From: a virus
Direction: 5' to 3' (one strand)
Length of the DNA: 36,207 nucleotides
IMG/VR virus record: IMGVR_UViG_3300020153_000060
Coordinates: 1-36,207 of that record
In this document: in pieces, positions 15,441-36,207 of the stretch
Position numbering within the stretch: position 1 is the first letter of the stretch
How the letters are laid out: every line of letters starts with the position of its first letter
Position numbers and translations under genes: made by a program
Notes under the pieces: model-generated
Databases searched by the model: none
The model's input: only the letters and a program-made list of their open reading frames with translations
Told to the model about the DNA's origin: nothing

Positions 15441-15848
15441 TCACCTCCTTTGACTCAACTGCACGAGGATCTGCTCTTTATACTCTGGCACCACACGTAC
15501 GAGCACGAACGCGAGCGCTTTCTCGATGTTCGTGAGTCGGGATACGATACCCGTAACCGTGCTCATGAGAGCATCGGGATCGTAAGGCTTCACGTCGTGC
15601 TCGTCTATATGGCGCTCTAGAGTAGTGCGCAGCGCATCGACCGCCTCGAATAAGGCGTTGGCGCTGCGCATCAGTAGCGCGCCCTCGCGGTTGCCAGCGA
15701 ATTCGTAGCCGGCCCACACAGATGCTGCAGCGGCAAAGACGACGAACAGGAGAGCAGCCTGGTTGCGCATGACGTCGAAGACGACCACACATTCCACCAG
15801 CGTTAACGCGAGGGCAACGAACAGAGAAATCGCCTGTCTCTTCGTCAT
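15441..15848 (-). CDS. Membrane protein with two TM helices and helical tail
   Basis: A 135-residue protein. Two membrane helices lie at about residues 7-27 ('ISLFVALALTLVECVVVFDV') and 31-50 ('ALLFVVFAAAASVWAGYEFA'). A long amphipathic helical domain follows (about 58-130) with heptad-like Leu/Val spacing. The gene starts with an ATGA overlap at the end of the UDG-polymerase gene. No family is recognised. Its place between the replication operon and the pilin-like and holin-like genes makes it the first of a series of small membrane-associated proteins. Confidence 0.6.
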   Translation of the reverse strand: MTKRQAISLFVALALTLVECVVVFDVMRNQAALLFVVFAAAASVWAGYEFAGNREGALLMRSANALFEAVDALRTTLERHIDEHDVKPYDPDALMSTVTGIVSRLTNIEKALAFVLVRVVPEYKEQILVQLSQRR

Positions 15849-18286
15849 ATCTCGACCTCCTCAAGATGACCCCAATCGGGACCTACGGATATATCGACCT
15901 TCCACGGCACCTCCGGAACCAAATCGGTTGCTGCCTTGATCATCACATCTCTTAGTAGGCACGCCACATCTCTCCAGCGTTCACGATTCGCAACGTCGAC
16001 GATAAGCGAGTCGTGAACGGTGATGATCGGACGCGCCCATTCCCACCACCCCCTTTCTTTCAGTTGTCGATCCAGTTCTATTAGCGCCGCGAGCGTTATG
16101 TCGCTCGCGAGTGACTGTACAGGCATATTGACGGACGCCTTGCGTGCGTCTTCTAGGTTCGTCTCGGTGATGAGCGGGAAGCGCCGTCGTCTACCCGTAC
16201 GCGTCTCCACGTACCCGTGCTCGCGCATTAGTCTGAATTGCTCCTCGCGCCACGCGGCGAGTCGTTTCATGACTTGGTTGTAGCGCCTGACGAACGCACG
16301 CGCAGTCTCGATCGGCAGGTTCGCCGACTCCGCAAACGAATACTCAGTGCCACCGTATAAGTACGAAAAGTTGAACATCTTGCACAACATACGCTGCTCT
16401 TTTGTAAATTGCGGTCCGAACATAGCAATCGCGACTTCGCTGTGCAAGTCACGGTCGTGTCTATAGGCCTCCAACAGAAACTCCTCGCCGCTCAACGCCG
16501 CAGCGACTCGAAGCTCCGCTTGGCTGTAGTCCGCGGCGACCAGCACACCCCCTTCAGATGCTATGAACACACCACGAATAAACTTCCCCCACGGAATGCC
16601 ACCGATCTCAGCCGTCCCGGGCCTCGGTATCGTCTGAATTGCGGGATCGCGAGCGGATAGTCGCCCCGTCTCGGAGCCGTAGACAAGAAAGTCCGGGTGG
16701 GCCCTACCGTCGCCTCCCTCCTTGAATACGAGTTGCGCCAGGTTGTCGACGTACGACGAGCGCAACTTGTCCAGCGACTTATACTCGCTGTACACCTGCA
16801 ACCACTCCCGTACGTGTTCCGGCAGCGTCGACCGAATGCGATCCAAGGCAGCGCGAGCGACCTTCGAAGTCGATCGCGGCTTTACACCGCGAGCCTTCGG
16901 AGGCTGCGGGCACCCCAAGACGTCGTAGAGCACATGCGAAACTTGGTGTGGCGCATTCGGATTGAATTGCATGCCCGCGATTTCGAATAGCCGTGCCAAT
17001 CGCTTCCGCGACTCGATGTCGAGGGCTCGCTCCAATCGCTCGATTGCATCCCGCGATACGGCTACACCGCGCAGTTCCATTTGTAGAAGAACAGGTTGCG
17101 AGGCCATAAGAGGCCACAGGAATGGTCGCTCGAATAAGCCCTCGTCGCGCAAGCGACGCTCCAACTCGAACCACAGTCGCAGCGTAAGCGTCGCATCCAA
17201 CGCAACGTACGTGTACAGATACTTGCGGGGTACCTTCGAATACCTATCGTTACGACTGCGTAGGAAGCGTTGCACCAACTCGCGTTCGTAGTCCGTGTAG
17301 CCAAAAAACTCGTAGAGCAAAGTCTTGAGCGCATGTGGCGAATTCTCGTCGAGTGCGTAGTGCGCTATCAGCGTATCGTAATCTACGTGTACGTTGTGCA
17401 CGCCTACCTGGTGTGCCAGGAAATGCATGTCGAACTTGGCGTTATGACCGACCCACTTGACATCGGTTCTGTCGAACTGTCGAATCAGCATACTCGCACA
17501 GTCGGGTGTGTACAACAGCGAATCCGGAATGATAATGCACTCATCAGTAGCAGTCGCGATACACATACACAGAATGCGGTCGCGCTGCCAGTCGATTTGG
17601 TCGGTCTCCAAGTCGAACGCCCACACGCCGCTGCGCGCAGACAGGAATTCGTCGGCCTCATCCGTCGACTTAGCGACCACCGCACGAGGAAGCGGGGGTG
17701 TGCCTTCCCCCGGCTCCTCACCGCGAACGACCCGCGCGAACTTCTCCAGATCACCGCGGAATTCGGTGTCGCGCGAAGGCGCCCGCAGCACGTACGCAGG
17801 ATGCCACGTAGGAAGGCACACCCCTTTCAGCCACCGCCCGCGGAGCGCTGTCATTGTGAGAGACGCCCCTTGAGGATACAACGCTACCGTAGCCGTCTGA
17901 CCCAACGCGAGTACGTACAGACGTCCACACACTTCGCTGATGCGCCTGATTTCCGCAGCGAGTCCAGGCAGACAACAACGCGCCGCCTCCGGTGGTAAGA
18001 CGTTGTTCGGTGGCCTGCAGGACGCGACGTTCAGCACGGCTGCCTCGTCGAACGACAGGCCCACGACTTCGAGCCTGGACTGCAACAACTTGCCTGCGCG
18101 TCCTACGAACGGCCGGCCCTGGACGACCTCATCAGCGCCAGGCGCTTCACCGACAATGATGAACGTTGGGTGCTCCGGTATGTGACTCGGCACGTAGGGC
18201 GCTGCGCGCAGCGGACACGCGTCACACTTGGCACCCTCGCGCTTTACAGGTGTGTCCGAATGTAGTCCAGGTTCTGCTGAAGGCAT
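15845..18286 (-). CDS. Uracil-DNA glycosylase (family 4) fused to DNA polymerase A
   Basis: An 813-residue fusion starting at the ATG with complement 18284-18286 and upstream GAGGTGG. Residues 20-190 are a family 4 UDG: 'GEAPGADEVVQGRPFVGRAG' (46-65), 'WHPAYVLR' (161-168), and Fe-S cysteines C21, C24, C90 and C104 or C105. Residues 220-375 are a 3'-5' exonuclease with intact ExoI D225-x-E227, ExoII N282xxxD286 and ExoIII Y360xxxD364. Residues 400-813 are a family A polymerase: motif A 'DYSQAELR' (D586), motif B R632-K636-F640-Y644-G, motif C 'VHDS' (D759). Phe640 should disfavour dideoxynucleotides. There is no 5'-nuclease domain. It overlaps the DpdA-like gene by 43 bases. Confidence 0.93.
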   Translation of the reverse strand: MPSAEPGLHSDTPVKREGAKCDACPLRAAPYVPSHIPEHPTFIIVGEAPGADEVVQGRPFVGRAGKLLQSRLEVVGLSFDEAAVLNVASCRPPNNVLPPEAARCCLPGLAAEIRRISEVCGRLYVLALGQTATVALYPQGASLTMTALRGRWLKGVCLPTWHPAYVLRAPSRDTEFRGDLEKFARVVRGEEPGEGTPPLPRAVVAKSTDEADEFLSARSGVWAFDLETDQIDWQRDRILCMCIATATDECIIIPDSLLYTPDCASMLIRQFDRTDVKWVGHNAKFDMHFLAHQVGVHNVHVDYDTLIAHYALDENSPHALKTLLYEFFGYTDYERELVQRFLRSRNDRYSKVPRKYLYTYVALDATLTLRLWFELERRLRDEGLFERPFLWPLMASQPVLLQMELRGVAVSRDAIERLERALDIESRKRLARLFEIAGMQFNPNAPHQVSHVLYDVLGCPQPPKARGVKPRSTSKVARAALDRIRSTLPEHVREWLQVYSEYKSLDKLRSSYVDNLAQLVFKEGGDGRAHPDFLVYGSETGRLSARDPAIQTIPRPGTAEIGGIPWGKFIRGVFIASEGGVLVAADYSQAELRVAAALSGEEFLLEAYRHDRDLHSEVAIAMFGPQFTKEQRMLCKMFNFSYLYGGTEYSFAESANLPIETARAFVRRYNQVMKRLAAWREEQFRLMREHGYVETRTGRRRRFPLITETNLEDARKASVNMPVQSLASDITLAALIELDRQLKERGWWEWARPIITVHDSLIVDVANRERWRDVACLLRDVMIKAATDLVPEVPWKVDISVGPDWGHLEEVEI

Positions 18287-19005
18287 TCTGCCACCTCGTC
18301 TTCCGAAGGTACTCGCGTCCAATCGCTCTCGTCGAGCGAGGCCTTGGGAGCATCGAGGCTCGTAAGTCTTCGCTTCCTGTAAGCGAGCGCGGTCGGTAGC
18401 GACGTGTCGAATGACGCGACGGTCGGAAACTCGTCGGCAATCACAGCGATCTCTGTCAACGATTGCCATGTTCCCAGTAGATGCGTCCTCGTCAGATCCC
18501 AGTTACGGCTGAGCCACGCTACCGCAGCGCGCCTCGCACCGAGTCGCTCGAGGTACTTCGGCACACCGACGACGACGCGCACATCGCCAAGACGCTTGGT
18601 CGCGAGGTTGATCGCCTGCTCGGCACACATACACCACTCAGCGATGTTCCGCCCATGTGGTACGACCATCACGCACTGCGCAACGCTCGCGCAAGCCCCA
18701 ACGTAGTCGACCAGAGCACCGAGCGTTCGCTCGGAGTCTCCCATGTAATCCGGACAGACGATGACATCCGGGTAGACGTGAGCGGCCACGCGAAGAGCGT
18801 CGACAATCGAAGGCACCCCATCGTTCTCCGGCGCACCGTTATCGACGATCACTGCGCACCGACGCCTCGACACCGAGAACGCATCCACGGTCGAAGGCGC
18901 AGACGCGAGCGCCACGGGTGCGACCAACAACGTATCGTACGTTCGCAGCCACTGGTAGCGTGGATCCGTCAGTAATACCGGCGGGTACACAGCGTAGAAT
19001 CTCAT
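18244..19005 (-). CDS. dpdA: DpdA-like DNA 7-deazaguanine transglycosylase (TGT superfamily)
   Basis: A 253-residue TIM-barrel protein that should exchange guanine in DNA for preQ0. Three regions line up with tRNA-guanine transglycosylase. 'VIVDNGAPE' (D55) matches the TDSGGFQ base-recognition loop. 'PDVIVCPDYMGD' (D86) matches the second substrate Asp. 'SFDTSLPTALAYR' (D200) matches the nucleophile segment FDCVxPTRxGR. The C-terminal zinc and tRNA-binding part of TGT is missing, as expected for a DNA-acting member. The gene is in one overlapping operon with queC, queD, queE and folE, directly before the DNA polymerase. The start has AGGAGCAGGCC upstream. Confidence 0.85.
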   Translation of the reverse strand: MRFYAVYPPVLLTDPRYQWLRTYDTLLVAPVALASAPSTVDAFSVSRRRCAVIVDNGAPENDGVPSIVDALRVAAHVYPDVIVCPDYMGDSERTLGALVDYVGACASVAQCVMVVPHGRNIAEWCMCAEQAINLATKRLGDVRVVVGVPKYLERLGARRAAVAWLSRNWDLTRTHLLGTWQSLTEIAVIADEFPTVASFDTSLPTALAYRKRRLTSLDAPKASLDESDWTRVPSEDEVAECLQQNLDYIRTHL

Positions 19006-19014
19006 GGCCTGCTC

Positions 19015-19371
19015 CTATTCACCGTCATCGACGTGGGCACCTTCGCGCCGACGATGCAACATGAGGACGATCGCGGCGAGGAACCTCGCGTAGTTCACGA
19101 TGTCGATTAGTTCCTCGAGCACGACATCCCACTTGACATCGTCGTCGTTCTCCTCGGCGGAACGGTACAGCTGCTCAACACGACCACTCTTCTTACTGAT
19201 TTCGTGGAGAAACCCCCACGGGTACGACAGCCGATGCCACACAGGCTTGACGACATCGTACTGGCGGGCACGCTCGCTAACGACAACGTTCGCCCGCGTC
19301 GTCACCTCGTTGACCGCGTCGTACCACTCGACGAGGAGTCGCTCAATGAGTTCGCGCTCTTCAGGAAACAC
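19015..19371 (-). CDS. Nmad1/DUF1599-like helical protein (MazG-like)
   Basis: A 118-residue all-helical protein. The pattern 'RQYDVVKPVWHRLSYPWGF' followed by 'KSGRVEQLYR' and 'VLEELIDIVNYARFLAAIV' agrees with nucleotide modification associated domain 1 (DUF1599). This family is distantly MazG-like and is frequent in phages with modified DNA. A role in trimming or sensing nucleotide pools is plausible; it is not proven for the family. GTG 19371 is used because GGAGGTGCACC lies in front, and it overlaps the folE stop by 11 bases. It sits between folE and the DpdA-like gene, which supports a modification role. Confidence 0.7.
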   Translation of the reverse strand: MFPEERELIERLLVEWYDAVNEVTTRANVVVSERARQYDVVKPVWHRLSYPWGFLHEISKKSGRVEQLYRSAEENDDDVKWDVVLEELIDIVNYARFLAAIVLMLHRRREGAHVDDGE

Positions 19372-19948
19372 GGTGCACCTCCTTTAGGAATTCTTCACGC
19401 GCCAGGGGGTTCGCGAGGAACACCCCTTTCAGTGCGGTCGTACACAGTGGTGGCACATCCGCTCCACCGCTAACCATCTCGCACGTATGGACGGCACGAA
19501 TGTGGACCCCCACGCCAAGTGGCTGGAGGTTCTCTACGAACCACTCAGCCACCTGCTCTGTAAGCACTTCCTGCACCACGGGCCACGATGCGATCCAGCG
19601 CACGATCTGTGCGACCTTCGACTTACCGATTATGAATCTGCTCGGCAGGTAGCCAACGATCGCGACACCGTGATACGGAAGCAAGTGGTGAGGGCACGGC
19701 GCCCAGAACCTGATGTTCCGCACAACGACCATTTGGTCAACACGTGGGTCATCGTTTTCGAAGAGCGTCACCCGCGGTTCGGGCAGACCAGTTGCGATGC
19801 GCACGAGGTATCGAGCGACCCGCCTCGGCGTCTCGCGCATGTGCGGACTCTCGAGGTCGAACCTCAGCAGTCGCAACAGTTCGGCGACCCGACTCTCGAT
19901 GTCGACATCAGCGCAAGCCTGCGAGGACGTGTATCTGTGGTCGGACAT
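19361..19948 (-). CDS. folE: GTP cyclohydrolase I (FolE)
   Basis: A 195-residue enzyme that turns GTP into 7,8-dihydroneopterin triphosphate, the first step of both folate and 7-deazaguanine synthesis. Zinc ligands are C85 and H88 in 'FWAPCPHHLLPYHG' and C156 in 'VHTCEMVSGGAD'. The 'FIIGKSKVAQIVRW' segment (105-118) is the conserved GLSK..R region. The usual CEHH is CPHH here. ATG 19948 is chosen over an upstream start because GGGGGTGC precedes it. It overlaps the queE gene by 41 bases and the next gene by 11. The operon context makes it the source of the preQ0 precursor. Confidence 0.93.
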   Translation of the reverse strand: MSDHRYTSSQACADVDIESRVAELLRLLRFDLESPHMRETPRRVARYLVRIATGLPEPRVTLFENDDPRVDQMVVVRNIRFWAPCPHHLLPYHGVAIVGYLPSRFIIGKSKVAQIVRWIASWPVVQEVLTEQVAEWFVENLQPLGVGVHIRAVHTCEMVSGGADVPPLCTTALKGVFLANPLAREEFLKEVHRVS

Positions 19949-20630
19949 AGAGCACCCCCATGAACTCGCTCGCACACCGAGACGCGATCTCGACGATCTT
20001 CGCGTAGCGAAGCCAGTAGCTCCTCATCACATTCCCCCACTCGCGCTCTGGTACTGCCTTGTGCGCGAGTGGGTTCGCGGGTTGCAGGATCAGCGTCCTC
20101 GAGATCTCGGAAGGCCTGGCCGCGTCTGCGAACGCAATCGCGCCCACCACGTCCTTCTTGTACGGGCGGACAACGACCTTGAGGTACCCGACAGGGAAGG
20201 CGCGCAACGCGAACTCCGCCGCGTAGCCTTTACCGAGAAACCACGGGAGTTTAGGCGACACACTCCACGTGACCTCGAGTTGTTGCAGGTCGATCGATGG
20301 CGGATACGTACCATTCGTCTCGACCGTCACACGCATGGATCGGAGGCGCGCAGCGCTCGCAAGTCGGTAGACGTGCTCCTGCCAGAGAAGCGGTTCGCCA
20401 CCCGTGATGACGAGGGCCCCCAACTCCGACGTTCGCACGGCGGCAAGCGCCTCCTCGAATTCGACGGCACCAGGGAACGCGTCTCCACGACGCAACCACG
20501 CATACTTGGTATCGCAGTGCTCGCACTTGAGGTTGCACCCGGTGAACCGAACGAACAAACTCGGTTCACCGAGATGCAAGCCCTCACCCTGGACCGACGT
20601 AAATACGTAGACCCGGGGTTCCTCAGCCAT
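19908..20630 (-). CDS. queE: 7-carboxy-7-deazaguanine synthase (QueE)
   Basis: A 240-residue radical SAM enzyme that contracts 6-carboxytetrahydropterin to 7-carboxy-7-deazaguanine. The cluster motif is CxxxCxxC at 'GCNLKCEHCD' (C32, C36, C39). 'TSVQGEGLHLGEPSLFVR' (11-28) is the QueE substrate-binding entry, and 'LVITGGEPLLW' is the SAM-binding GGE motif. The ATG at 20630 follows GGAGGAG; a longer start lacks this. It overlaps queD by eight bases. With FolE, QueD and QueC it completes the route to preQ0. Confidence 0.95.
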   Translation of the reverse strand: MAEEPRVYVFTSVQGEGLHLGEPSLFVRFTGCNLKCEHCDTKYAWLRRGDAFPGAVEFEEALAAVRTSELGALVITGGEPLLWQEHVYRLASAARLRSMRVTVETNGTYPPSIDLQQLEVTWSVSPKLPWFLGKGYAAEFALRAFPVGYLKVVVRPYKKDVVGAIAFADAARPSEISRTLILQPANPLAHKAVPEREWGNVMRSYWLRYAKIVEIASRCASEFMGVLYVRPQIHVLAGLR

Positions 20631-20991
20631 CGAACTCCTCCATGGGCCGATACGTGACACCGTGATTCGGAGACTCGTAGACGGTCACCGTAGCCACCGG
20701 CCACAATTCGTTCGCGAGTCGCTCGTAGATCCACTTGGCGATCATCTCGGCCGTTGGCAGTTCGACGATGTCGTTCAGCAGGGTATGGTCGAGCACCCCA
20801 ACGATGCGCCGCACCGCGTCGTCGAGGTCACCGAAGTCCACGGCCATGCCTACCTCGTCGAGATCGCTCTCGTCGTAACCGAATGTGGCGACTACGGTCC
20901 ACGTGTGACCGTGGAGCAACGCGCACTTCCCTTTGTAACCGGGCAGGTGGTGCGCCGCGTCGAACGTAGTTCTGACTTCGTATGTGTACAT
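20623..20991 (-). CDS. queD: 6-carboxy-5,6,7,8-tetrahydropterin synthase (QueD)
   Basis: A 122-residue enzyme that converts dihydroneopterin triphosphate to 6-carboxytetrahydropterin. Zinc histidines are H15 in 'FDAAHHLPG' and H27/H29 in 'CALLHGHTW', where C23 is the catalytic cysteine (CxxxHGH, as in QueD rather than PTPS). D68-H69 in 'VLDHTLLND' and E106 complete the active site. A longer frame starts upstream, but ATG 20991 has AGGAG at proper spacing and gives the usual family length. It begins one base after the queC stop. Confidence 0.95.
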   Translation of the reverse strand: MYTYEVRTTFDAAHHLPGYKGKCALLHGHTWTVVATFGYDESDLDEVGMAVDFGDLDDAVRRIVGVLDHTLLNDIVELPTAEMIAKWIYERLANELWPVATVTVYESPNHGVTYRPMEEFDG

Positions 20992-20992
20992 T

Positions 20993-21694
20993 TCAGGCTC
21001 CTTTCGAACGACCGGATTTGGTTTTGACCAGCGGATCTTCGATGCCCACCGCCGCAAACGCTTCAGCGCGCTTGATACAGGATCCGCACTTGCCGCAGGG
21101 ACTACGTCGTGCATCGTAACACGACCGCGTCAGCTCCCACGGAACACCCAACTCGGTCCCCCACTTGACGATCTCCGCCTTCGTCATGTACAGCAGCGGC
21201 GTCCACAGTTCCAAGGGACGACCGTGAACGCGATCGACAACCCGCGCCAACGCCTCGACGAACTCGGGGTGCGTATCGGGATAGTCGCTCGCATCGTCGT
21301 GGTGTACACCGATCGCGACCACATCGGCATCGCGCTCGAATGCCACTATGCTCGCGATTGAGACGAGTACCAAGTTGCGCGCGGGCACGACCGTGGCCGC
21401 CAACCCCTTGCGCTTCGCCATGGAATCGAGTGCTGCGCTCGTGTCAAGGAGCGCCGACGCGGCACAGAGCGACCGAATCAGATCGGTCTGTACGAACAGC
21501 GCCTCGACATGGTCGCGACCGAATCGCGCAGCAGCGGCCTCCACGAGGTCACGTACAGCCTCGGACTCGTACCGCATACCGCGCTGACCGTACCGCACGT
21601 TCACGGCAACCACGCGGTCGCCCCTGGACAGCGCCGCCCACAGCACGGTCGCGCTGTCCATCCCACCTGATACCAGACATACTGTTGTTCGCAT
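20993..21694 (-). CDS. queC: 7-cyano-7-deazaguanine (preQ0) synthase (QueC)
   Basis: A 233-residue PP-loop ATPase that converts 7-carboxy-7-deazaguanine to preQ0 with ATP and ammonia. The ATP-binding PP-loop is 'SGGMDS' (9-14). 'VPARN' (103-107) and 'DDASDYPD' (133-140) are QueC signatures. Four zinc cysteines are present: C192, C200, C203 and C206 in 'SCYDARRSPCGKCGSC'. ATG 21694 follows TAGGAGGTG. It is the first gene of the deazaguanine block, directly downstream of the primase-polymerase gene. No QueF is seen, so preQ0 is the likely end product. Confidence 0.96.
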   Translation of the reverse strand: MRTTVCLVSGGMDSATVLWAALSRGDRVVAVNVRYGQRGMRYESEAVRDLVEAAAARFGRDHVEALFVQTDLIRSLCAASALLDTSAALDSMAKRKGLAATVVPARNLVLVSIASIVAFERDADVVAIGVHHDDASDYPDTHPEFVEALARVVDRVHGRPLELWTPLLYMTKAEIVKWGTELGVPWELTRSCYDARRSPCGKCGSCIKRAEAFAAVGIEDPLVKTKSGRSKGA

Positions 21695-21704
21695 GCGACA
21701 CCTC

Positions 21705-24278
21705 CTATAGCGTTATCGTGAGTTGCTTGGATACGAAGGTCTTCGGTACATCGAGCCCCGCCGCATGCGCTTGTTCGAGGTGAACGCCATACGCGAGAAT
21801 CGTTCGACCTCTCACGTTGCGCAGCTCGGGACCCAAGCTGAATGGCTGCGCCGCAACCTGCTCCCGAATGGCACTGCGACCGAGAACAGAGCGACGCATG
21901 CGCGCGCGACTGGTGGCGTACGCGTCGTACGCCGACGCGTAGTGGTACCAAAGCACACCCCCTTCCATTACCCAAGGGAAAGCGCTGGTACCTCGAGCAG
22001 CGGCGTTAACAACGAACTCGACGAAGTCGTCGCCCGCCGTGGGTGTGCGACCGAGCCTCACCGAGTAGACACAGTCGATCGACGGCCTGAGCACAGCCGG
22101 ATCGAGCTCAGGTACCCGCGTTCTGTGATGCAGCGCGAACGCGTGGAGCAACCTGATTCCGAACCACACCACCGTGTAGTTCTGACGGACACGAGGCGAG
22201 AGACCTTCCAGGACGTCCTCGCAGTCGGCCTCCGCCGCGTCCAGCAATTCCGCGAGCGGAGCCTGCAGGGTCCACAAGTACCATGGATACGCCCAATCCG
22301 TGAGACTCGTGGACAGGAGAGCCTCACACGAGTCCCACGCCGTCGTGCCGATGGCAACGTCCTCCGGACGAAGGTTCACACCAACCGAACGCTCCAACAC
22401 AGCCGGGTCGTCGATCTTGTCCTCCCCGTCGATCGTCAGTGGCGCACGCAATGGATACGTCACCACTGTCTGATCGCTCCTACCCCGTGCATCCATACCC
22501 GTATCGTACGTCAGCAGTATCATACGTACCACATCGGGTCGTACCAGCGCCTCGCGGTATTCGCCGAACGATACGGGTACGCTGGACGAGGAAGACACGA
22601 GGGACAGCATGACAAACTTTGTTGTGTTCGCGTCATACACCCTCGGTTCCAACCCCAACATTGGCTGGATGATGCGCGCTATCGTAGTCGTCTTGCCACT
22701 ACCGCGCATGCCGTACAGCATGAGCGTAGGCATCCTGTAGCCAACGCTGATCAGGTACGGTCGCACCGTAGCGGCAGCCACCCAACCCAATATGGGGTAC
22801 ACAACGTCGGGGCGGTTGATATCCCAAATTCGATCCATGATAAAGCGTACGGTCGATGGGTCGCCTTCCAGGAAGCGCGGCTGAAACGGCGGCGGAAACC
22901 TGGCAACGCACACCGGCACGTCCGAAGCGAGTTCCTCTTCGAGTCTGTGGATCGTACCCTGGTCGTCCAGGGTGCATCCCGGGAAGACGTAGTACCGCCT
23001 GCCCTGCCAGATCGTGAAGCCCGCGTAAGGCACTCCACAAACAGTCGGAGCACCCCTCTCGATGAGCCTATCGTACAACCACGCACGTAGCAGTCGGACC
23101 GTGGTATCGCTACCGAACCACGTCCACTGTGGTGGGAGATGCTTCAGCAGTGAGAGCGTCGTTGTGAGCGCCGAGAGTGGTATCGGTACGTTTCGTGCGA
23201 CATCGCCTGTCACAGGCTGGATAACGTCGCACAAAATCATGTCGCCGACTTCATCACGGTAGTCAGGCGGCGCCTGAACGAGCGCCACCGGCATCGGAAT
23301 GAACGTCGAGATGCGCTTCTCTCCTTCGTACATCCCATCGGAACCCGCTTCCAGCGTCAGCCTGCGACCACGCTTGTGCTTGGGTTCGCGTTCGCGCTCG
23401 CGTTCACGTTCGCGTTCGACCACCACCGGTACGAGGCGCGTCTCCGTCTCCACACCTGCCAGATCGGGTATACTGGACTCGTATGTGGGTACAGGTTCGA
23501 GGTCGAGGTCGCGCACATCGAGCACCGGCAGACTTTTCGCCTCGCGTGCGCGAGTGAGTGTGTGTTCGAGATACCGTGGATCTTCCGCAGCCTTGTCTCC
23601 ACATGGCCACCGCGAGAAGAGCAACCGAATGGCATCATCCGAAGCGCCCAAGCGCACAAGTGAACGCACGACATACCAATCTCGCTCGCTACGCGAGCGA
23701 AAACCTTTCGTGCTACCCGCCGCCGCTCTCCTGAACGTCTCGTCTCGCATCGCGAGCAGCACCGCCGCGAGATCCCTCGGATCGTATACGTTCTCGTCGA
23801 TTCTAACGACCTCGACCAGCTTGCCACGCCGTTCGTTGTAGGACCCAGGTACACGCAGCAACCTATCCGCGTTCCACGCCGCGACGTCGGCACCAGGAAT
23901 CGCTTGCACGGCGAGCCGGTTGACCAACTCCAGGCGCTGTGTATCCAAGAACTTCGTTAACGCCCAGTAAATGTGCAACCCCGCACCTGACGAGACAACT
24001 ACGGTCGGTGGCACGAGCGCTTCAGGCAGAACGGCCGGCTTGTCGACATCGATCCACGCGACACCGGCTCCGAGCACCGCCGCCTTACCCATTCTCGGCT
24101 CTCTTCGCACTGCGGGTGCGAAGTACACCTCGCGGGTACCAACGGCTTCCTCGAACACACGACTCACTCGCTCCACTTCTATCCACCTTCGATGGGATTG
24201 TGTTAGGCCTCCAATCGACAGTTCTACTAGGCTCGACGGCGGAGCAAGTCTGAAGATGATGTTCACGAAGGCGTCCAC
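21705..24278 (-). CDS. Primase-polymerase (AEP) fused to helicase-type ATPase
   Basis: An 857-residue protein. The N-terminal part is an archaeo-eukaryotic primase/PrimPol domain: DxD at 'WIDVD' (D77, D79), SxH at 'SSGAGLHIYW' (H102), and the basic 'RLLRVPGSYNERR' (R142). A charged linker with an (E-R)n run spans about 287-299. The C-terminal part is a P-loop ATPase with Walker A 'GMRGSGKTT' (523-531), probably a replicative helicase of the primase-linked type. The start is a GTG, complement 24276-24278, with GGAGGG upstream. The start and its ribosome binding site lie in a 60-bp tandem duplication. It should prime and unwind DNA during phage replication, upstream of polymerase A. Confidence 0.85.
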   Translation of the reverse strand: MDAFVNIIFRLAPPSSLVELSIGGLTQSHRRWIEVERVSRVFEEAVGTREVYFAPAVRREPRMGKAAVLGAGVAWIDVDKPAVLPEALVPPTVVVSSGAGLHIYWALTKFLDTQRLELVNRLAVQAIPGADVAAWNADRLLRVPGSYNERRGKLVEVVRIDENVYDPRDLAAVLLAMRDETFRRAAAGSTKGFRSRSERDWYVVRSLVRLGASDDAIRLLFSRWPCGDKAAEDPRYLEHTLTRAREAKSLPVLDVRDLDLEPVPTYESSIPDLAGVETETRLVPVVVEREREREREREPKHKRGRRLTLEAGSDGMYEGEKRISTFIPMPVALVQAPPDYRDEVGDMILCDVIQPVTGDVARNVPIPLSALTTTLSLLKHLPPQWTWFGSDTTVRLLRAWLYDRLIERGAPTVCGVPYAGFTIWQGRRYYVFPGCTLDDQGTIHRLEEELASDVPVCVARFPPPFQPRFLEGDPSTVRFIMDRIWDINRPDVVYPILGWVAAATVRPYLISVGYRMPTLMLYGMRGSGKTTTIARIIQPMLGLEPRVYDANTTKFVMLSLVSSSSSVPVSFGEYREALVRPDVVRMILLTYDTGMDARGRSDQTVVTYPLRAPLTIDGEDKIDDPAVLERSVGVNLRPEDVAIGTTAWDSCEALLSTSLTDWAYPWYLWTLQAPLAELLDAAEADCEDVLEGLSPRVRQNYTVVWFGIRLLHAFALHHRTRVPELDPAVLRPSIDCVYSVRLGRTPTAGDDFVEFVVNAAARGTSAFPWVMEGGVLWYHYASAYDAYATSRARMRRSVLGRSAIREQVAAQPFSLGPELRNVRGRTILAYGVHLEQAHAAGLDVPKTFVSKQLTITL
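23385..23418. repeat. Hexanucleotide microsatellite (TTCGCG/TTCGCT-like)
   Basis: About 34 bases made of TTCGCG and one-base variants. On the coding (minus) strand they encode alternating Glu-Arg in the linker of the primase-polymerase between the primase and ATPase domains. Slippage in this tract would change the length of a charged linker in steps of two residues without breaking the frame. Confidence 0.8.
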
Positions 24279-24390
24279 TTAGGCCCTCCTCGCTGGCGAG
24301 GTATGGGGTGCAGGAGGCTGGGGGTGTGCAGCGTCCACTTAGGCCCTCCTCGCTGGCGAGGTATGGGGTGCAGGAGGCTGGGGGTGTGCA
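24271..24390. repeat. Perfect 60-bp tandem duplication over primase-polymerase start
   Basis: Bases 24271-24330 and 24331-24390 are identical over all 60 positions. Each copy carries a GGAGGG ribosome binding site and a GTG on the minus strand. The upstream GTG (24338) opens a 19-residue frame that ends in TAA directly before the true GTG at 24278. The repeat also contains GGGGGTGTGC at 24320 and 24380. The identity of the copies suggests a recent event or active maintenance. Confidence 0.97.
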
Positions 24391-29691: not shown

Positions 29692-29739
29692 GGGCGCGGT
29701 CGAGTTGCTTGCGCCGCGCTTTGTTCTGATTCTGCTTTT

Positions 29740-29778
29740 ATTATACTGTACACTTTTTGAAAAAGCAAGCACGGGCAC
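29740..29778 (-). promoter_or_regulatory. Promoter P1 (shared promoter family)
   Basis: On the minus strand: GTGCCCGTGC upstream element (29769-29778), -35 TTGCTT (29763-29768), a 17-base spacer containing TTTTTCAAAAA-type dyad DNA, and -10 TATAAT (29740-29745). The arrangement is a near-consensus sigma70 promoter. It would drive the helix-turn-helix gene and the replication and modification operon. It is one of four close copies in the window. Confidence 0.9.
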
Positions 29779-29977: not shown

Positions 29978-30604
29978 TCAACCCAGTTCCCGCACGTCGA
30001 GCGACAGCGCAGGGACAGAACGGCGAAGTGGCACGCCTCGCCGCTTCAGCACACCGTAAACCGATGTGACACCGCGGCCAGTCCAGTGCACAATCGCTTG
30101 GATTTTGAAGCCGGCCAGGTAGAGCGCCACAATCAGCCGCTCGTCTTCTGGTGTCATCGGTCTTCGCTCTACAGCGGGTCGCACACCATGCTTGCGTAGT
30201 ATGAAGTAAATGTACGGTACGGACAGACCTGTTTGTGCCGCAAGTTCGCGTACGGTCGCACCCTGCTTGTAACCGTCGGTGACAAGTTCGTGTAACTTTT
30301 CGCGTTGCGACCGTGCAAGCGGTGCGACCCACTGGCGTACGACTGTTTCTGCGACACCCAGTACCGCCGCGATATTTCGTATGTCAGTCTCGCCCTCCGC
30401 GTACGCATGCAGTGCGAGCTCACGCAAGTTCGCAAGCGTGCGAACCTGCTCATCACGTTGCTGCAAGCGTTCAGCGTCCACCATACCCCACGGTTCTGGC
30501 TCTGGTCCAAGTAAGGTCTCCAACCCGTCGGCTCGCGTTGCCTCCGGGTCTGACTCGACCTCGTTGGCCCTGCTGGCTCCGTTGATCGCTGGGAGTGCGC
30601 ACAT
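29978..30604 (-). CDS. Multi-HTH DNA-binding regulator candidate
   Basis: A 208-residue protein with three helix-turn-helix-like units: 'DIRNIAAVLGVAETVVRQWV' (about 74-93), 'TVRELAAQTGLSVPYIYFIL' (about 116-135) and 'KIQAIVHWTGRGVTSVYGVL' (about 166-185). The repeated form 'A..(T/V)G(L/V)....V' resembles transposase- or sigma-region-4-like HTH arrays. The first 60 residues are acidic and look disordered. It is expressed from its own promoter P2 with a short leader and GAGGTGAG ribosome binding site. Its place next to the four shared promoters makes it a good candidate for the protein that binds their dyads; this is inference. Confidence 0.65.
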   Translation of the reverse strand: MCALPAINGASRANEVESDPEATRADGLETLLGPEPEPWGMVDAERLQQRDEQVRTLANLRELALHAYAEGETDIRNIAAVLGVAETVVRQWVAPLARSQREKLHELVTDGYKQGATVRELAAQTGLSVPYIYFILRKHGVRPAVERRPMTPEDERLIVALYLAGFKIQAIVHWTGRGVTSVYGVLKRRGVPLRRSVPALSLDVRELG

Positions 30605-30627
30605 CTCTCACCTCGCTGTTGCTTCTT

Positions 30628-30666
30628 ATTATACTGGACGATTTTTGAAAAATCAACTCGGGGCAC
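30628..30666 (-). promoter_or_regulatory. Promoter P2 (shared promoter family)
   Basis: On the minus strand: GTGCCCCGAG upstream element (30657-30666), -35 TTGATT (30651-30656), 17-base spacer, and -10 TATAAT (30628-30633). The -35 and spacer include the perfect dyad GATTTTTCAAAAATC. It drives the multi-HTH gene with a leader of only about 15-20 bases. Confidence 0.9.
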
Positions 30667-30724
30667 TGAATTGAGGCCACGATTCTCTCTTGGGTGTGTG
30701 TATGCGTTGCACGTGTGTATGCGT

Positions 30725-30798
30725 TGCACGTGTGTGCATGCGTGCACACGTGCGTGCGTGTACGTGTGTATGCGTGTACGTGTGTATGCGTGTGCGTG
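30725..30798. repeat. 74-bp alternating pyrimidine-purine tract
   Basis: An unbroken run in which every step alternates pyrimidine and purine (TG, CA, CG and TA dinucleotides), with repeated TATGCGTGTACGTGTG units. Two more imperfect units extend it to about 30690. Such DNA can form left-handed Z-DNA and is easily deformed. It borders the AT-rich candidate origin and lies behind promoter P2. Confidence 0.9.
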
Positions 30799-31204: not shown

Positions 31205-31945
31205 TTACCGGATGCGGACCCCCTGCTCTTCGAGGCTCTCGCGGAGCAGCGTACAGATGTTCGCGGCTCTGTACTGCCATGGCGCGTTGCCGTCGACGGG
31301 GTGGCCCGCTTCGTACATCAGTGCGACTGCGGTTCGGATGTCGAGGGGTAGCCAGTAGCGCGGTACCGTTACGGTGTTGCGTAGGTCTTGCGGTGCACCG
31401 TGTTCGTTGATGCGCAGACTGTTGACGCCGATGTCGACGATGTCTTCGACGTTGAACACCACGGGCATCACGACGGTGCTGTACATGTATAGGTACCCGC
31501 CCGTGGAGAGGTCGTACGATAGCGGTTTCGTGCACGGTGCGATGTGCGCGAATGTGATCCGTTTGCACTGTATGTACGATGGTTGCCATGGGTGCGTAGG
31601 CGAGTACAACGCAAGCAAGCGTTCCTGTACGCTGGCTGTGGCCAATATCAACGCGAACGCACCCCTGCCTCCACACGGCACCACGGGCGCTCGTTGGTTC
31701 GCGGTTAGCACGAGTCTGCTGGGAACAGCAGGTCTGTCGATGTGGACGGGCTCGTCGTCGTCGTCGAGCGGTTGCAGCCACGGTCTCGGGCTTTCGGATT
31801 CGGTGATTGGGTCGATGTACGACTTCAGTCCGATCCACATGTTCAGCGGACCGGATTGCGAGCCCTCCCAGCCAACGGCACCCAACTCACGATGCGCCCA
31901 CGTGGGGGCTGGTGCGAAACCACGGACAGACTGCGTTAAGCACAT
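31205..31945 (-). CDS. Hypothetical protein
   Basis: A 246-residue protein starting at the ATG with complement 31943-31945 and AAGGAGGTGCAGC upstream. The middle is rich in beta strands ('YLYMYSTVVMPVVFNVEDIV') and the C terminus is helical ('DIRTAVALMYEAGH', 'AANICTLLRESLEEQ'). I do not recognise a family. It is the second gene of a two-gene unit behind promoter P3 and ends at a terminator. The C-terminal layout loosely resembles that of the gene before it, so the two may be distant paralogues. Early expression suggests host takeover or anti-defence, but this is speculation. Confidence 0.7.
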   Translation of the reverse strand: MCLTQSVRGFAPAPTWAHRELGAVGWEGSQSGPLNMWIGLKSYIDPITESESPRPWLQPLDDDDEPVHIDRPAVPSRLVLTANQRAPVVPCGGRGAFALILATASVQERLLALYSPTHPWQPSYIQCKRITFAHIAPCTKPLSYDLSTGGYLYMYSTVVMPVVFNVEDIVDIGVNSLRINEHGAPQDLRNTVTVPRYWLPLDIRTAVALMYEAGHPVDGNAPWQYRAANICTLLRESLEEQGVRIR

Positions 31946-31999: not shown

Positions 32000-32563
32000 C
32001 TATCGAGTGCGGTTGCTGGTGGTGGCTACCAAGGCGGTGGTGACGCGGTCAACGAGTTCGCGCCACTCGTTCGGAACGCGTTGGGCGAGTGAGGGGTCGT
32101 TGAACGCGGACGCGAGTAGTTCGGCAGCCACGCTGGCGTTGGTGGGGACGAAACATTTCTGGGCGGAGACCGCGATGTGTATGGCGGTGCAGAACCCGAG
32201 GTTAGGCGTGAGAGCGCAGCGTGACGTTGGTGCGATGACTGGGATCAGCACGCGGTTGCCGAGGTATAGTGTGTCGAGGTACTCCTCGTCGATGGGGCGG
32301 AGGAGTGCGTAGATGCGCCCCACGTGCGTTTCCGTATCGTAGAATCGGCGGAGCGTTGTGTACGGACCGGGCTTCTCTGACATCAGGATGTGGGACCCGA
32401 CGATTGCGTACACCGACCGCAGTGGTAGCCGCTTCACGTTGAATAGGCGCATCCCGATGATGCTGTCCTCGATGTTGAAGTGGTCGGATAGGCGTTCGTT
32501 CGCGCGGCGGATGGGCTCGGTGTCCTCGAGGTTTGTGCGTGGGTAGCCCGTTATTGTATGCAT
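32000..32563 (-). CDS. Hypothetical early protein
   Basis: A 187-residue protein with a strong ribosome binding site (AAAGGGGGTGAAC). It has a basic N-terminal region with 'RRANERLSDHFNIEDSIIG', a beta-rich middle ('NRVLIPVIAPTSRC') and a helical C terminus ('SVAAELLASAFNDPSLAQR'). No family is recognised. It is the first gene behind promoter P3, transcribed away from the GRWExW family. A 54-base gap separates it from the next gene, so the two are probably one transcript. Confidence 0.7.
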   Translation of the reverse strand: MHTITGYPRTNLEDTEPIRRANERLSDHFNIEDSIIGMRLFNVKRLPLRSVYAIVGSHILMSEKPGPYTTLRRFYDTETHVGRIYALLRPIDEEYLDTLYLGNRVLIPVIAPTSRCALTPNLGFCTAIHIAVSAQKCFVPTNASVAAELLASAFNDPSLAQRVPNEWRELVDRVTTALVATTSNRTR

Positions 32564-32624: not shown

Positions 32625-32632
32625 TACTTATT

Positions 32633-32671
32633 ATTATACCGTACACTTTTTGAAAAATCAAGCACCGGCAC
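32633..32671 (-). promoter_or_regulatory. Promoter P3 (shared promoter family)
   Basis: On the minus strand: GTGCCGGTGC (32662-32671), -35 TTGATT (32656-32661), 17-base spacer with TTTTTCAAAAA, and -10 TATAAT (32633-32638). It drives the two unknown minus-strand genes. Confidence 0.9.
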
Positions 32672-33002: not shown

Positions 33003-33041
33003 GTGCCGGTGCTTGCTTTTTCAAAAATCGGATAGGATAAT
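33003..33041 (+). promoter_or_regulatory. Promoter P4 (shared promoter family)
   Basis: On the plus strand: GTGCCGGTGC (33003-33012), -35 TTGCTT (33013-33018), 17-base spacer with TTTTTCAAAAA, and -10 GATAAT (33036-33041). It drives the GRWExW gene family and is the only member of the set that points rightwards. Confidence 0.88.
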
Positions 33042-33093
33042 AAAATTAGAATGAACAGAACACAACCCACCAGTAACCGTGAAAGGAGGTACC

Positions 33094-33495
33094 ATGAAAG
33101 CGCAGCATCTTAAACCTGGAGAAGTCGCGATCTACGAGAAGCACACTGGACGCTGGGAAATCTGGGTTGACGACACGGGAACTCGGTACGCGGATTACTA
33201 TTGCAACCATTCCGGGTTCGTGATGCCTGTTCCCGACCAGGAACCGGAAGAGACGAACAGTTTCTGCGATCTCGAAGTCGTCACGGAAGAGTGCAAGCGC
33301 TGCCCGTTCTTCCCGCTCCCGGACCTCGAGAACCCGAACTGGTTGATTCTGACCCACGAGGAAGCGGTACGTCAGTACTGGGACCTCTTGGAAGATGAAG
33401 GCGAGGGAGAGTACCTGAACTACATCGAGATTGTGTACCAGGACACGGGGAACAAGGTACGCCGGGGTGCCATGCTGCGACACGTGTTGTCGTAG
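33094..33495 (+). CDS. GRWExW-family early protein 1
   Basis: A 133-residue acidic protein, first gene behind promoter P4, with AAAGGAGGTACC upstream. It starts with a beta-hairpin-like 'EVAIYEKHTGRWEIW' (GRWEIW at 19-24). Four cysteines follow at C37, C58, C67 and C70 in a C-x20-C-x8-C-x2-C layout that could bind zinc. 'LTHEEAVRQYW' and 'YQDTGNKV' are shared with the next genes. I know no family with this set. A small zinc-bound early protein that targets a host factor is a reasonable guess. Confidence 0.75.
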   Translation: MKAQHLKPGEVAIYEKHTGRWEIWVDDTGTRYADYYCNHSGFVMPVPDQEPEETNSFCDLEVVTEECKRCPFFPLPDLENPNWLILTHEEAVRQYWDLLEDEGEGEYLNYIEIVYQDTGNKVRRGAMLRHVLS

Positions 33496-33596
33496 TAGCA
33501 GACCGAGATGACAACGGAATGGAGGTGCAAGGCTACGGTAACAATGGGGCTGGCGACCCCGTCTGTGTATCGAATATTCACGATGAAAGGAGAGAC

Positions 33597-34043
33597 ATGA
33601 AACAGAAGCAGTATATGCAATTGGGGGCCGATGAAGTGGCCTACTACGATGTGCCGATGGGTCGCTGGGAAATCTGGCCCGCCGGCGACGGTGAGCAATG
33701 GATTGACTTCATCTGCAAGAAGGACAACACGCCGTATCGCTGGTGGGACCTGCCCCAGGGCTTCACGGCCTCGGACATCGGTTGCAGTGGGAAGGAGGAA
33801 GGGAGCAGCGAGTTGTGCGACTTCTGTCTCCTGAAGCACGGGTTGCCTGACCCGGATGCCTATGGTTGGATCGTCAAGTCCCCCCTGGATGTGGCCATGA
33901 GGTTCTGGGACAAGGGGAACATGTGGATCGACCAGTGGGAAGCGTTCAACAACGCGATTTACCAGGACACCGGTAACACGGCCCGCTGGTTGATGGTCCG
34001 GGTCTTGATTCTGGCACGCGTGCTGGGTTGGTACGTGAAGTGA
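33597..34043 (+). CDS. GRWExW-family early protein 2
   Basis: A 148-residue protein with ATG 33597 behind AAAGGAGAGAC. 'EVAYYDVPMGRWEIW' (GRWEIW 22-27) is followed by 'QWIDFIC' and cysteines C40, C63, C74 and C77. It also has 'GLPDPDAYGW', 'KSPLDVAMRFW' and 'YQDTGNTAR', all aligned with its neighbours. A frame that begins further upstream is rejected because it has no ribosome binding site. It is closest to the fourth member, which shares 'FTxxDIGCxG' and 'HGxPDPxxxGW'. Function is unknown. Confidence 0.78.
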   Translation: MKQKQYMQLGADEVAYYDVPMGRWEIWPAGDGEQWIDFICKKDNTPYRWWDLPQGFTASDIGCSGKEEGSSELCDFCLLKHGLPDPDAYGWIVKSPLDVAMRFWDKGNMWIDQWEAFNNAIYQDTGNTARWLMVRVLILARVLGWYVK

Positions 34044-34123
34044 GCACGCAGTAGGTAGTAGGCAGCAGATGTCACAGGGTGGGTGGGTGGGGCTTGAATG
34101 CTATCTGTAGAAAGGAGGCGACC

Positions 34124-34804
34124 GTGAACGTGCAAGTTAGGGTCTGCGAACGCAGTCGTGGGCGATGGGAAGAGTGGCGCAGTGGAGACAGGGTGGAGGT
34201 CCTGTTCTACTGCAATCACGCCGATCGCGCCTTTGGCATGCAGTACGATACCAGGAAACCTGATTGCAGGGCGTACTGCACGATCGATTGTGGTGAGGTG
34301 GCTCCCGAGGGAGACGACGACGGAGCCTGGGTGAATTTGACCCCGTGGAGGGCCTATTGGCGCTACTGGAAACCGCAAGGTGATGACCCCTGGCCGTTCT
34401 GGTTTGATTGGATGGCCGAGGTGCGCTTCCACACGGGTTGTCGCCTGCTCTACGAGTACGCGATGTCGAGGGTCCTCCCGAAAGTGCGCGCGCCATATGT
34501 GGCGGTGTATCACATATGGCGATGGCGCTGGGAGGTCTGGGCTAGTGACGACGGCCTGTACTACGTAGACTTGGTACACGAGGAGCGGCCCATCGATCGT
34601 CCGATGAGGTGGGAGACAGAGAGGGCGACGGAAGGGCTCGGTCTGTGGCCCCCGTTCCCGAAGCGCGGCGACAAGCGTTGGTTGTTGATGACACGGGAGC
34701 AGGCGTTGGCGCGCTATTGGTCGGTGTGGAAGGACCGACCTCGCGTCGTGTTGAGCTTGACGTGCAATCAAGTCCGATACCAAGCGATGAAAGGAGCAAC
34801 ATGA
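34124..34804 (+). CDS. GRWExW-family early protein 3, two-repeat form
   Basis: A 226-residue protein starting at GTG 34124 behind AAAGGAGGCGACC. It seems to be two family units joined. The first has 'GRWEEW' (13-18), cysteines C30, C48, C52, C56 and 'LTPWRAYWRYW'. The second has 'WRWEVW' (134-139), 'YYVDLVHEERP' and 'MTREQALARYW' but has lost the cysteines. It ends with an ATGA overlap with the next gene. The internal duplication suggests gene fusion within a family that was already tandem. Function is unknown. Confidence 0.75.
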   Translation: MNVQVRVCERSRGRWEEWRSGDRVEVLFYCNHADRAFGMQYDTRKPDCRAYCTIDCGEVAPEGDDDGAWVNLTPWRAYWRYWKPQGDDPWPFWFDWMAEVRFHTGCRLLYEYAMSRVLPKVRAPYVAVYHIWRWRWEVWASDDGLYYVDLVHEERPIDRPMRWETERATEGLGLWPPFPKRGDKRWLLMTREQALARYWSVWKDRPRVVLSLTCNQVRYQAMKGAT

Positions 34805-35337
34805 AGGTGAAACACATGAATTTGGAACCCGGCACGGTGGCGGTTTGTGCGGGAGTGGTTGGTCGGTGGGAGGTCTGGCAAGGGGAAGGTGACGAACAGT
34901 ACGTGGACTTCATCTGTCTGCGCGAGTCTGCGTTCTGCAACTTCGACCTGCCCCCCGACTTCACGGTCGCCGACATCGGGTGCACCGGCACCTTGGACAC
35001 CAACGAGATCTGCTGGGACTGCCCGCTCCGACACGGAATCCCCGACCCCGAGTACTGGGGGTGGGAGGTTCTGACCCACGAGGAAGCGGTTCGGTCGTTC
35101 TGGGAGCCTACGGACGAAGAGACCGTGGGGGAGTGGGCAGACTTCATCGATTCGGTTTACCGGGAAACCGAAAACAGGGTGCGCTACGACGCTTGCTACA
35201 GGGTGGTGGCGCATCGCGTTACGGAGGAATTCGACCTGGACAACCTGGTGGATCGCACCCCGTCCCGCGAATATCGCATCACCTTCGTTAGGGACCTGTT
35301 CGATCGGGACTGGGTTTTCGTGGAACGTACCTATTAG
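34801..35337 (+). CDS. GRWExW-family early protein 4
   Basis: A 178-residue protein whose ATG overlaps the previous stop (ATGA), behind AAAGGAGCAAC. 'TVAVCAGVVGRWEVW' (GRWEVW 21-26) is followed by 'QYVDFIC' and cysteines C39, C61, C71, C74. 'HGIPDPEYWGW', 'LTHEEAVRSFW' and 'YRETENRVR' align with members 1 and 2. It carries about 40 extra residues at the C terminus ('REYRITFVRDLFDRDWVFVE'). A longer upstream frame is rejected. Function is unknown. Confidence 0.78.
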   Translation: MKVKHMNLEPGTVAVCAGVVGRWEVWQGEGDEQYVDFICLRESAFCNFDLPPDFTVADIGCTGTLDTNEICWDCPLRHGIPDPEYWGWEVLTHEEAVRSFWEPTDEETVGEWADFIDSVYRETENRVRYDACYRVVAHRVTEEFDLDNLVDRTPSREYRITFVRDLFDRDWVFVERTY

Positions 35338-35348
35338 AAAGGAGCAAC

Positions 35349-35438
35349 ATGATCGAGGTGTTGGCATTCCTGTTCATTGTGGTGGTGGTCATCGCGGGCT
35401 GTTTGCTGATTGAATACATGCTTCGCCGCCCGTGGTAG
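35349..35438 (+). CDS. Membrane micropeptide (29 aa)
   Basis: ATG 35349 lies behind the same GAAAGGAGCAACATGA leader used by the preceding gene. The 29 residues are a single hydrophobic helix ('VLAFLFIVVVVIAGCLLI') followed by 'EYMLRRPW'. The identical leader and tight spacing argue that it is translated. It may anchor or inhibit a membrane partner. No family is recognised. Confidence 0.55.
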   Translation: MIEVLAFLFIVVVVIAGCLLIEYMLRRPW

Positions 35439-35554
35439 GTGGGGCGTGTACGCATGGGAGGTGAGTGGCGTGTGTGTTGTTGCTGGATAAGTCTTGCGCG
35501 TGGGAGGTTCGCCACCTGACCTGCGTGCATCTGTAGACTCGAGGAGGTGCGAAA

Positions 35555-36142
35555 ATGTCACTGCCCAAACCGTCTGAGTTGCGAATGGACGAGGTGATCG
35601 TGGGCATCTCGCCGTCGAATCAGCGTCGAATCGAGGTCTGGTCCACGAGCCGTGGCGACGGCTACTGGTTCGAAACGTACTCGATGCTCCAGTGCGCGAA
35701 GAACATGTGCTTGGAGCGTCGGTTCGTGAGCGCGGTGGAAGCGGATGACGAATTCGCGCGAATCGTGTCGCGGCGCATGAAGTGGTGGTGGGTTAAGGTC
35801 GATGAGGCCAAGACCCAGGTGTGGCAGAAATTGCTGCGCAGGGGACAGCGCGAGACGTTGTGGGAGGTCGCGTGGCGAATCCGTCGTTGCCATGAGGGCC
35901 TCCCGCAGCCCGACCAGGGCTACAGGTTCGTTGCAGCCATGGAGAGTGTCGCGCTTATGCTTCCCGAGGTGGACGAGTGCGCGTTCACACACCAGAGGTT
36001 GCCGGCGGACCTCGTTGCGACGCTATGGGATCGTGTGGGTGACCTGTACCACGCAACCTTGGCCGCGCGCGTCGAGTTCGTGCGCATCGCTCCGTGTGAC
36101 GAGGCGCCGTCGCGCGTCTGGTTTCGCGTTGCGGTGAAGTAG
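35555..36142 (+). CDS. GRWExW-related early protein 5 (divergent)
   Basis: A 195-residue protein with GAGGAGGTGCGAAA upstream. The N-terminal unit 'VIVGISPSNQRRIEVWSTS' resembles the family hairpin with GRWExW changed to RRIEVW, then 'GYWFETYSMLQC' in place of the DFIC strand. 'WWWVKVDEAKTQVWQKL' takes the place of the '(T/S)xxEAxxxYW' helix. The C-terminal 90 residues are unlike the other members and are helical. Relatedness is suggestive only. It is the last gene before a terminator, so it closes the early plus-strand unit. Confidence 0.65.
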   Translation: MSLPKPSELRMDEVIVGISPSNQRRIEVWSTSRGDGYWFETYSMLQCAKNMCLERRFVSAVEADDEFARIVSRRMKWWWVKVDEAKTQVWQKLLRRGQRETLWEVAWRIRRCHEGLPQPDQGYRFVAAMESVALMLPEVDECAFTHQRLPADLVATLWDRVGDLYHATLAARVEFVRIAPCDEAPSRVWFRVAVK

Positions 36143-36157
36143 GCTACGAGTCGTTGG

Positions 36158-36190
36158 AAGCGCCAGCATGTACTGCGCGTGCTGGCGCTT
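36158..36190 (+). terminator. Intrinsic terminator of the GRWExW operon
   Basis: Arms AAGCGCCAGCA (36158-36168) and TGCTGGCGCTT (36180-36190) form an 11-bp stem with an 11-base loop, followed by TCTGTT. It ends the plus-strand unit that begins at promoter P4. Confidence 0.85.
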
Positions 36191-36207
36191 TCTGTTGCGT
36201 ACGTCCC

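Follow-up and report, generated by a model that had tools for sequence, protein, structure and literature searches.

What are the neighbouring genes at the right end of this virus record, and what do their products do? The window, the whole stretch of DNA analysed here, is the entire record IMGVR_UViG_3300020153_000060 (36,207 bases, 59% GC), which is probably a genome fragment. Its source is an uncultivated, tailed-phage-like bacterial virus. Tail-type genes lie in the left arm on the + strand (0.1-12 kb), and the minus strand between 15.4 and 29 kb encodes DNA polymerase, a primase/helicase-like protein, QueC, an exonuclease and a helicase. A tRNA search of the window found none, and an Rfam search gave no match. 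Searches with the polymerase and the primase led to a few related contigs of uncultivated viruses, 30-39% identical. No close relative of the record was found in these searches, and no host emerged when genomes were searched for relatives of the primase.

Several features of the minus-strand region were observed besides. The DNA polymerase (15845-18469, - strand) belongs to family A; a uracil-DNA glycosylase domain at its N-terminus (PF03167, E = 1e-21, residues 85-226) is fused to the exonuclease and polymerase domains. GTP cyclohydrolase I, a radical-SAM protein (QueE-like), 6-pyruvoyl tetrahydropterin synthase (QueD-like) and QueC are encoded in one cluster at 19361-21694 (- strand). This cluster is the 7-deazaguanine (preQ0) pathway, possibly with a role in viral DNA modification. 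At 24271-24390, a 60-bp unit is exactly duplicated in tandem at the start of the primase gene and just upstream, and the duplication takes in the region of the primase ribosome-binding site.

As the databases searched held no relative of it, the array at the right end looks like a new gene family, specific to the virus and probably directed at the host cell. It consists of the following features.

33094-33495, + strand: gene A, 133 aa, pI 4.6, a four-Cys unit (C37, C58, C67, C70)
33597-34043, + strand: gene B, 148 aa, pI 4.7, a four-Cys unit (C40, C63, C74, C77)
34124-34804, + strand: gene C, GTG start, 226 aa, pI 8.4, two fused units
Gene C, about residues 1-118: unit 1, with rearranged cysteines
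Gene C, about residues 119-226: unit 2, without the finger cysteines and without the finger loop
34801-35337, + strand: gene D, 178 aa, pI 4.4, a four-Cys unit (C39, C61, C71, C74)
35349-35438, + strand: small gene between D and E, 29 aa, hydrophobic (MIEVLAFLFIVVVVIAGCLLIEYMLRRPW)
35555-36142, + strand: gene E, 195 aa, in the same operon as A-D

Genes A to D are real genes. They are consecutive on the + strand with good ribosome-binding sites (GAAAGGAG), their GC3 is 0.73-0.82, and dN is lower than dS between copies. Gene D starts inside the end of C, the two sharing ATGA, and extends 35-40 aa at the C-terminus beyond its four-Cys unit. The gene for the 29-aa membrane peptide, absent from the initial annotation, has a ribosome-binding site identical to that of gene D.

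Homology was examined unit by unit, with local alignment z-scores against 300 shuffles. Nearly all pairs of units from A to D show z-scores between 5 and 35: B-D 34.7, A-D 31.5, A-C2 20.8, A-B 16.4, A-C1 9.5, D-C1 8.9 and C1-C2 4.9, the lowest pair being B-C1 with 2.7. Pairwise BLAST of the ORFs gave E-values of 6e-27 for B-D, 1e-18 for A-D, 5e-8 for A-C and 1e-7 for A-B. An independent search with D as the query recovers A and B in the record. By these comparisons, the four genes A-D are homologues, with a likeness well above what chance would give; A, B and D are 27-39% identical to each other. The four neighbouring genes with shared blocks in the initial annotation are thus borne out, including the motifs GRWE[IVE]W, D[FY][IY]C, ExCxxC, LTxEEA...[YF]W and Y.[DE]T.N. 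Because the copies are homologous and diverged with dN below dS, all of them appear to be maintained.

Gene E had been taken for a probable fifth, divergent member, and this is rejected, as every homology test failed. Its z-scores are below 2 against every unit, hhalign against the family gives a probability of 0.2%, and hmmsearch --max against the family does not list it at an E-value of 10. The N-terminus of E scores 3.1 bits, and many of 2000 self-shuffles score higher. The sole remaining likeness to A-D is the short RRIEVW. The genes at 32000-32563 and 31205-31945 were also tried as relatives of A-D and were rejected by the shuffle-alignment test.

The spacing C-x20-22-C-x8-10-C-x2-C is common to A, B and D. 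Two units are fused in gene C, as proposed. Its unit 1 also has four cysteines, but spaced C-x17-C-x3-C-x3-C, and its unit 2 has lost all four finger cysteines together with the loop; one unrelated Cys remains in unit 2. With four potential metal ligands at constant spacing, the Cys4 set in the loop of A, B and D is most likely the site of a structural zinc ion. Structural Cys4 zinc domains in general likewise have four constantly spaced cysteines with CxxC last. Unlike them, the array proteins match no zinc-finger family above the cut-off (best zf-piccolo, E = 0.11), and their models have no trusted fold match in PDB.

AlphaFold2 models were built from five sequences of the window, all from one genome. 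The model of gene B has a pLDDT of 77.6 and a pTM of 0.77; that of gene D has a pLDDT of 66.6 and a pTM of 0.67, with low confidence in the C-terminal extension. The two models share the order of elements: three strands, with GRWE[IV]W in strand 2 and the first Cys ending strand 3, then strand 4 at the second Cys, the CxxC loop, a short strand and three helices. The unit is thus predicted to be one compact alpha/beta domain of ~130 residues, with a three- to five-stranded sheet, a Cys-bearing loop and three C-terminal helices. No trustworthy match for these five-sequence models came from VIA-align (Z of at most 4.3) or from Foldseek searches of PDB and viral models (E of at least 0.59). The best PDB matches, Sac1, Fig4, galectin-3, SSB and sliding clamps, are all below the trust level. 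For models of this kind, the missing PDB match does not prove a new fold.

No relatives of A-D were found in Pfam, PHROGs, NCBIfam, PADLOC or PDB sequences. The best E-values of family profiles were 0.068-0.65, under the cut-offs and scattered across unrelated families. The PADLOC scan of the array gave no match in a library that covers defence, not anti-defence. With tblastn, only chance matches were obtained, both for A-D among 50,697 phages and for D among 72,556 plasmids. A Klebsiella phage match to A (E = 0.2) is considered to be by chance because it is antisense to annotated genes in both records examined, and a Novosphingobium plasmid match (E = 7) is also by chance. Peptide-pattern scans of IMG/VR and GTDB genomes, which catch mainly close relatives, found no relatives. 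Together with the fold libraries of PDB and viral models, these searches uphold the view that the family is not a described one. A literature search on tandem early paralogues found nothing relevant.

Among the virus relatives, whole-record profile searches of 40 polymerase-related records and 9 primase-related contigs found no family member, and hmmsearch --max on ORFs of related contigs gave nothing significant. None of eight related virus contigs that have polymerase and primase in common with this virus yielded a member of the family. The family may exist elsewhere unseen, because the pattern scans find mainly close relatives, some very near records may lie outside their coverage, and most of the related records are fragments. 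One candidate of relative G001, located in its early region (L072:7417-7821, WCWVDADGNKY), scored 6-8 bits, within the range of shuffles, and was rejected. In G001 and another relative, G002, the small ORFs beside the HTH gene differ (L072:6514-6822, L072:7864-8154 and L071:6685-7083), and two small ORFs of G001 are weakly alike (30%, 3e-5). The stretch beside the HTH gene may be a variable accessory locus of this virus group.

The transcription signals of the right arm are as follows.

29738-29778, - strand: promoter cassette, 41 bp
30626-30666, - strand: promoter cassette, 41 bp
32631-32671, - strand: promoter cassette, 41 bp
33003-33043, + strand: promoter cassette of the array, 41 bp, with the upstream box GTGCCGGTGC, -35 TTGCTT, a 17-nt spacer and -10 GATAAT
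36156-36195, + strand: terminator-like hairpin after E, with a 16-bp stem, a 5-nt loop and then a T-rich tail

A profile scan of the window found four cassettes at 62-69 bits and scored 0.9 bits at the next best place; since the profile was derived from the four sites themselves, the gap to the fifth-best place is the informative figure. The cassettes are invariant at 28 of 41 positions, and their pattern is GTGCCsGTGC-TTGmTT-TTTCAAAAA...-kATAATAA. Each shows the sigma-70 pattern of bacteria, in which a 17-nt spacer separates -35 TTGmTT from -10 kATAAT. The 11-nt palindrome TTTTTCAAAAA spans the boundary between the -35 and the spacer, so that the spacer of the array promoter contains most of it, and a GTGCC box lies upstream. 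TTTTTCAAAA alone, with one mismatch or less, occurs 8 times against 0.4 expected, corresponding to both strands of the four sites. The palindrome could be a place where a repressor binds. No match to the cassette was found in a scan of IMG/VR.

One cassette faces each of four units: the A-E array, the divergent pair at 31.2-32.6 kb, the HTH gene, and the operon that leads to the helicase, primase and polymerase. The cassettes thereby precede all right-arm units, and two of them form a divergent pair. Such an arrangement suggests that the four cassettes constitute one early regulon. The HTH protein (about 29978-30604), whose own gene has a cassette, is perhaps a regulator of the cassettes and a candidate for a repressor at the palindrome. 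A low-complexity GTGTGTATGCGTGCAC repeat is observed at 30694-30793, upstream of the cassette of the HTH gene. As the cassette is common to the replication operon, expression of the array would be early or middle, which strengthens the proposed placement in an early region. The cassette would mark early expression, not anti-defence, since the replication genes are also driven by it. The hairpin at 36156-36195 folds with -34.6 kcal/mol (z = -3.6), and no shuffle is equally stable; it is unlisted in a pattern-based terminator scan. The proposal of one promoter before the array and a terminator at its end thus agrees with the cassette and with the terminator-like hairpin.

The reading that we prefer, at a probability of roughly 45%, is a lineage-specific accessory family, duplicated in tandem and expressed early, with Cys4 zinc in A, B and D, whose members bind host proteins for takeover or anti-defence. 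One ~130-residue domain would have been duplicated repeatedly to give the array, and zinc in the loop would have a structural role in A, B and D. The fusion of two units in gene C suggests that the domain works in pairs. Produced early from the promoter type of the replication operon, the proteins, which are all Trp-rich and acidic in A, B and D, would most likely bind host proteins. Each copy may have a different target or target variant, and the binding would disarm a defence or redirect host machinery. The absence of the family from related contigs with the same replication module fits an accessory host-interaction role, and takeover or anti-defence is plausible. No known anti-defence, defence or takeover protein resembling the family was found, which counts against the proposed role.

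A narrower form of this explanation is counter-defence specifically, in which the proteins inhibit CRISPR, restriction or abortive systems, each copy for a variant of one defence protein. Tandem, diverged, lineage-restricted paralogues with a promoter of early type are reminiscent of how AcrID1 is expanded in SIRV viruses (PMC11065993), but no sequence or fold similarity to known inhibitors was found, and the operon has no Aca-like regulator, the HTH gene being about 2.5 kb off in its own unit. We regard this as possible, though doubtful. The array could even be a new fold-level class of viral counter-defence proteins, diversified by tandem duplication, with each copy, including the fused copy, against a different variant of a host defence; it would then belong to a regulon equivalent, in bacterial viruses, to the early anti-defence regulon of archaeal ones. 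This is quite improbable.

It is unlikely that the products are instead small regulatory or DNA/RNA-binding zinc proteins, accessory factors of viral transcription or replication not directed at the host. The Cys4 set in A, B and D, the promoter cassette held in common with the replication operon and the slightly basic C (pI 8.4) are consistent with such factors. Nevertheless, the pI of A, B and D is acidic (4.4-4.7), no zinc-ribbon or nucleic-acid-binding family matched the array proteins, and the family was not found in the relatives sharing the replication module. Late or virion-associated structural proteins, located in this arm by happenstance, are very improbable: virion proteins can be small, W-rich and Cys-containing, and the record may be a fragment that does not cover the rightward gene context, but the cassette is present only at the four replication-side operons of the window and never in the structural arm, including before the + strand tail genes (0.1-12 kb), and no tail or capsid family matched the array proteins above chance.

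Returning to host-directed accessory proteins, the array is, pending a shown function, one more orphan phage family among many. It is a compact testable set, with five units, a predicted common fold, one natural Cys-free variant as to the finger, and a defined promoter. Arrays of diverged orphan paralogues under an early viral promoter are a good hunting ground for new host-takeover or counter-defence proteins, and two known systems are comparable.

Bacillus phage SPP1 has the early units PE1 and PE4, whose short ORFs are dispensable and have no known function; they lie next to replication-driving units (PMC6316719). As in the array, short-ORF early units of a lytic phage adjoin DNA-replication units. 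In the passages drawn on here, the SPP1 ORFs are not described as one tandem paralogous family, and tblastn showed no sequence similarity to the array family in the phage collection.

SIRV2-type archaeal viruses have a single conserved regulatory sequence common to early genes, among them acrID1, which is itself expanded in a few viruses (PMC11065993). Their promoters are archaeal TATA/BRE, whereas the array promoter is a bacterial -35/-10, and the cassette of the array, unlike the SIRV2-type regulon, serves the replication operon too. No similarity was found between SIRV2-type proteins and the array proteins, and the anti-defence role of the array is putative. The likeness lies in organization. 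As in Icerudivirus SIRV2 and its relatives, small genes without database relatives are present in several diverged copies close together (PMC11065993), and a conserved regulatory sequence is repeated before several early units of one virus, here as four cassettes with 28 of 41 positions invariant.
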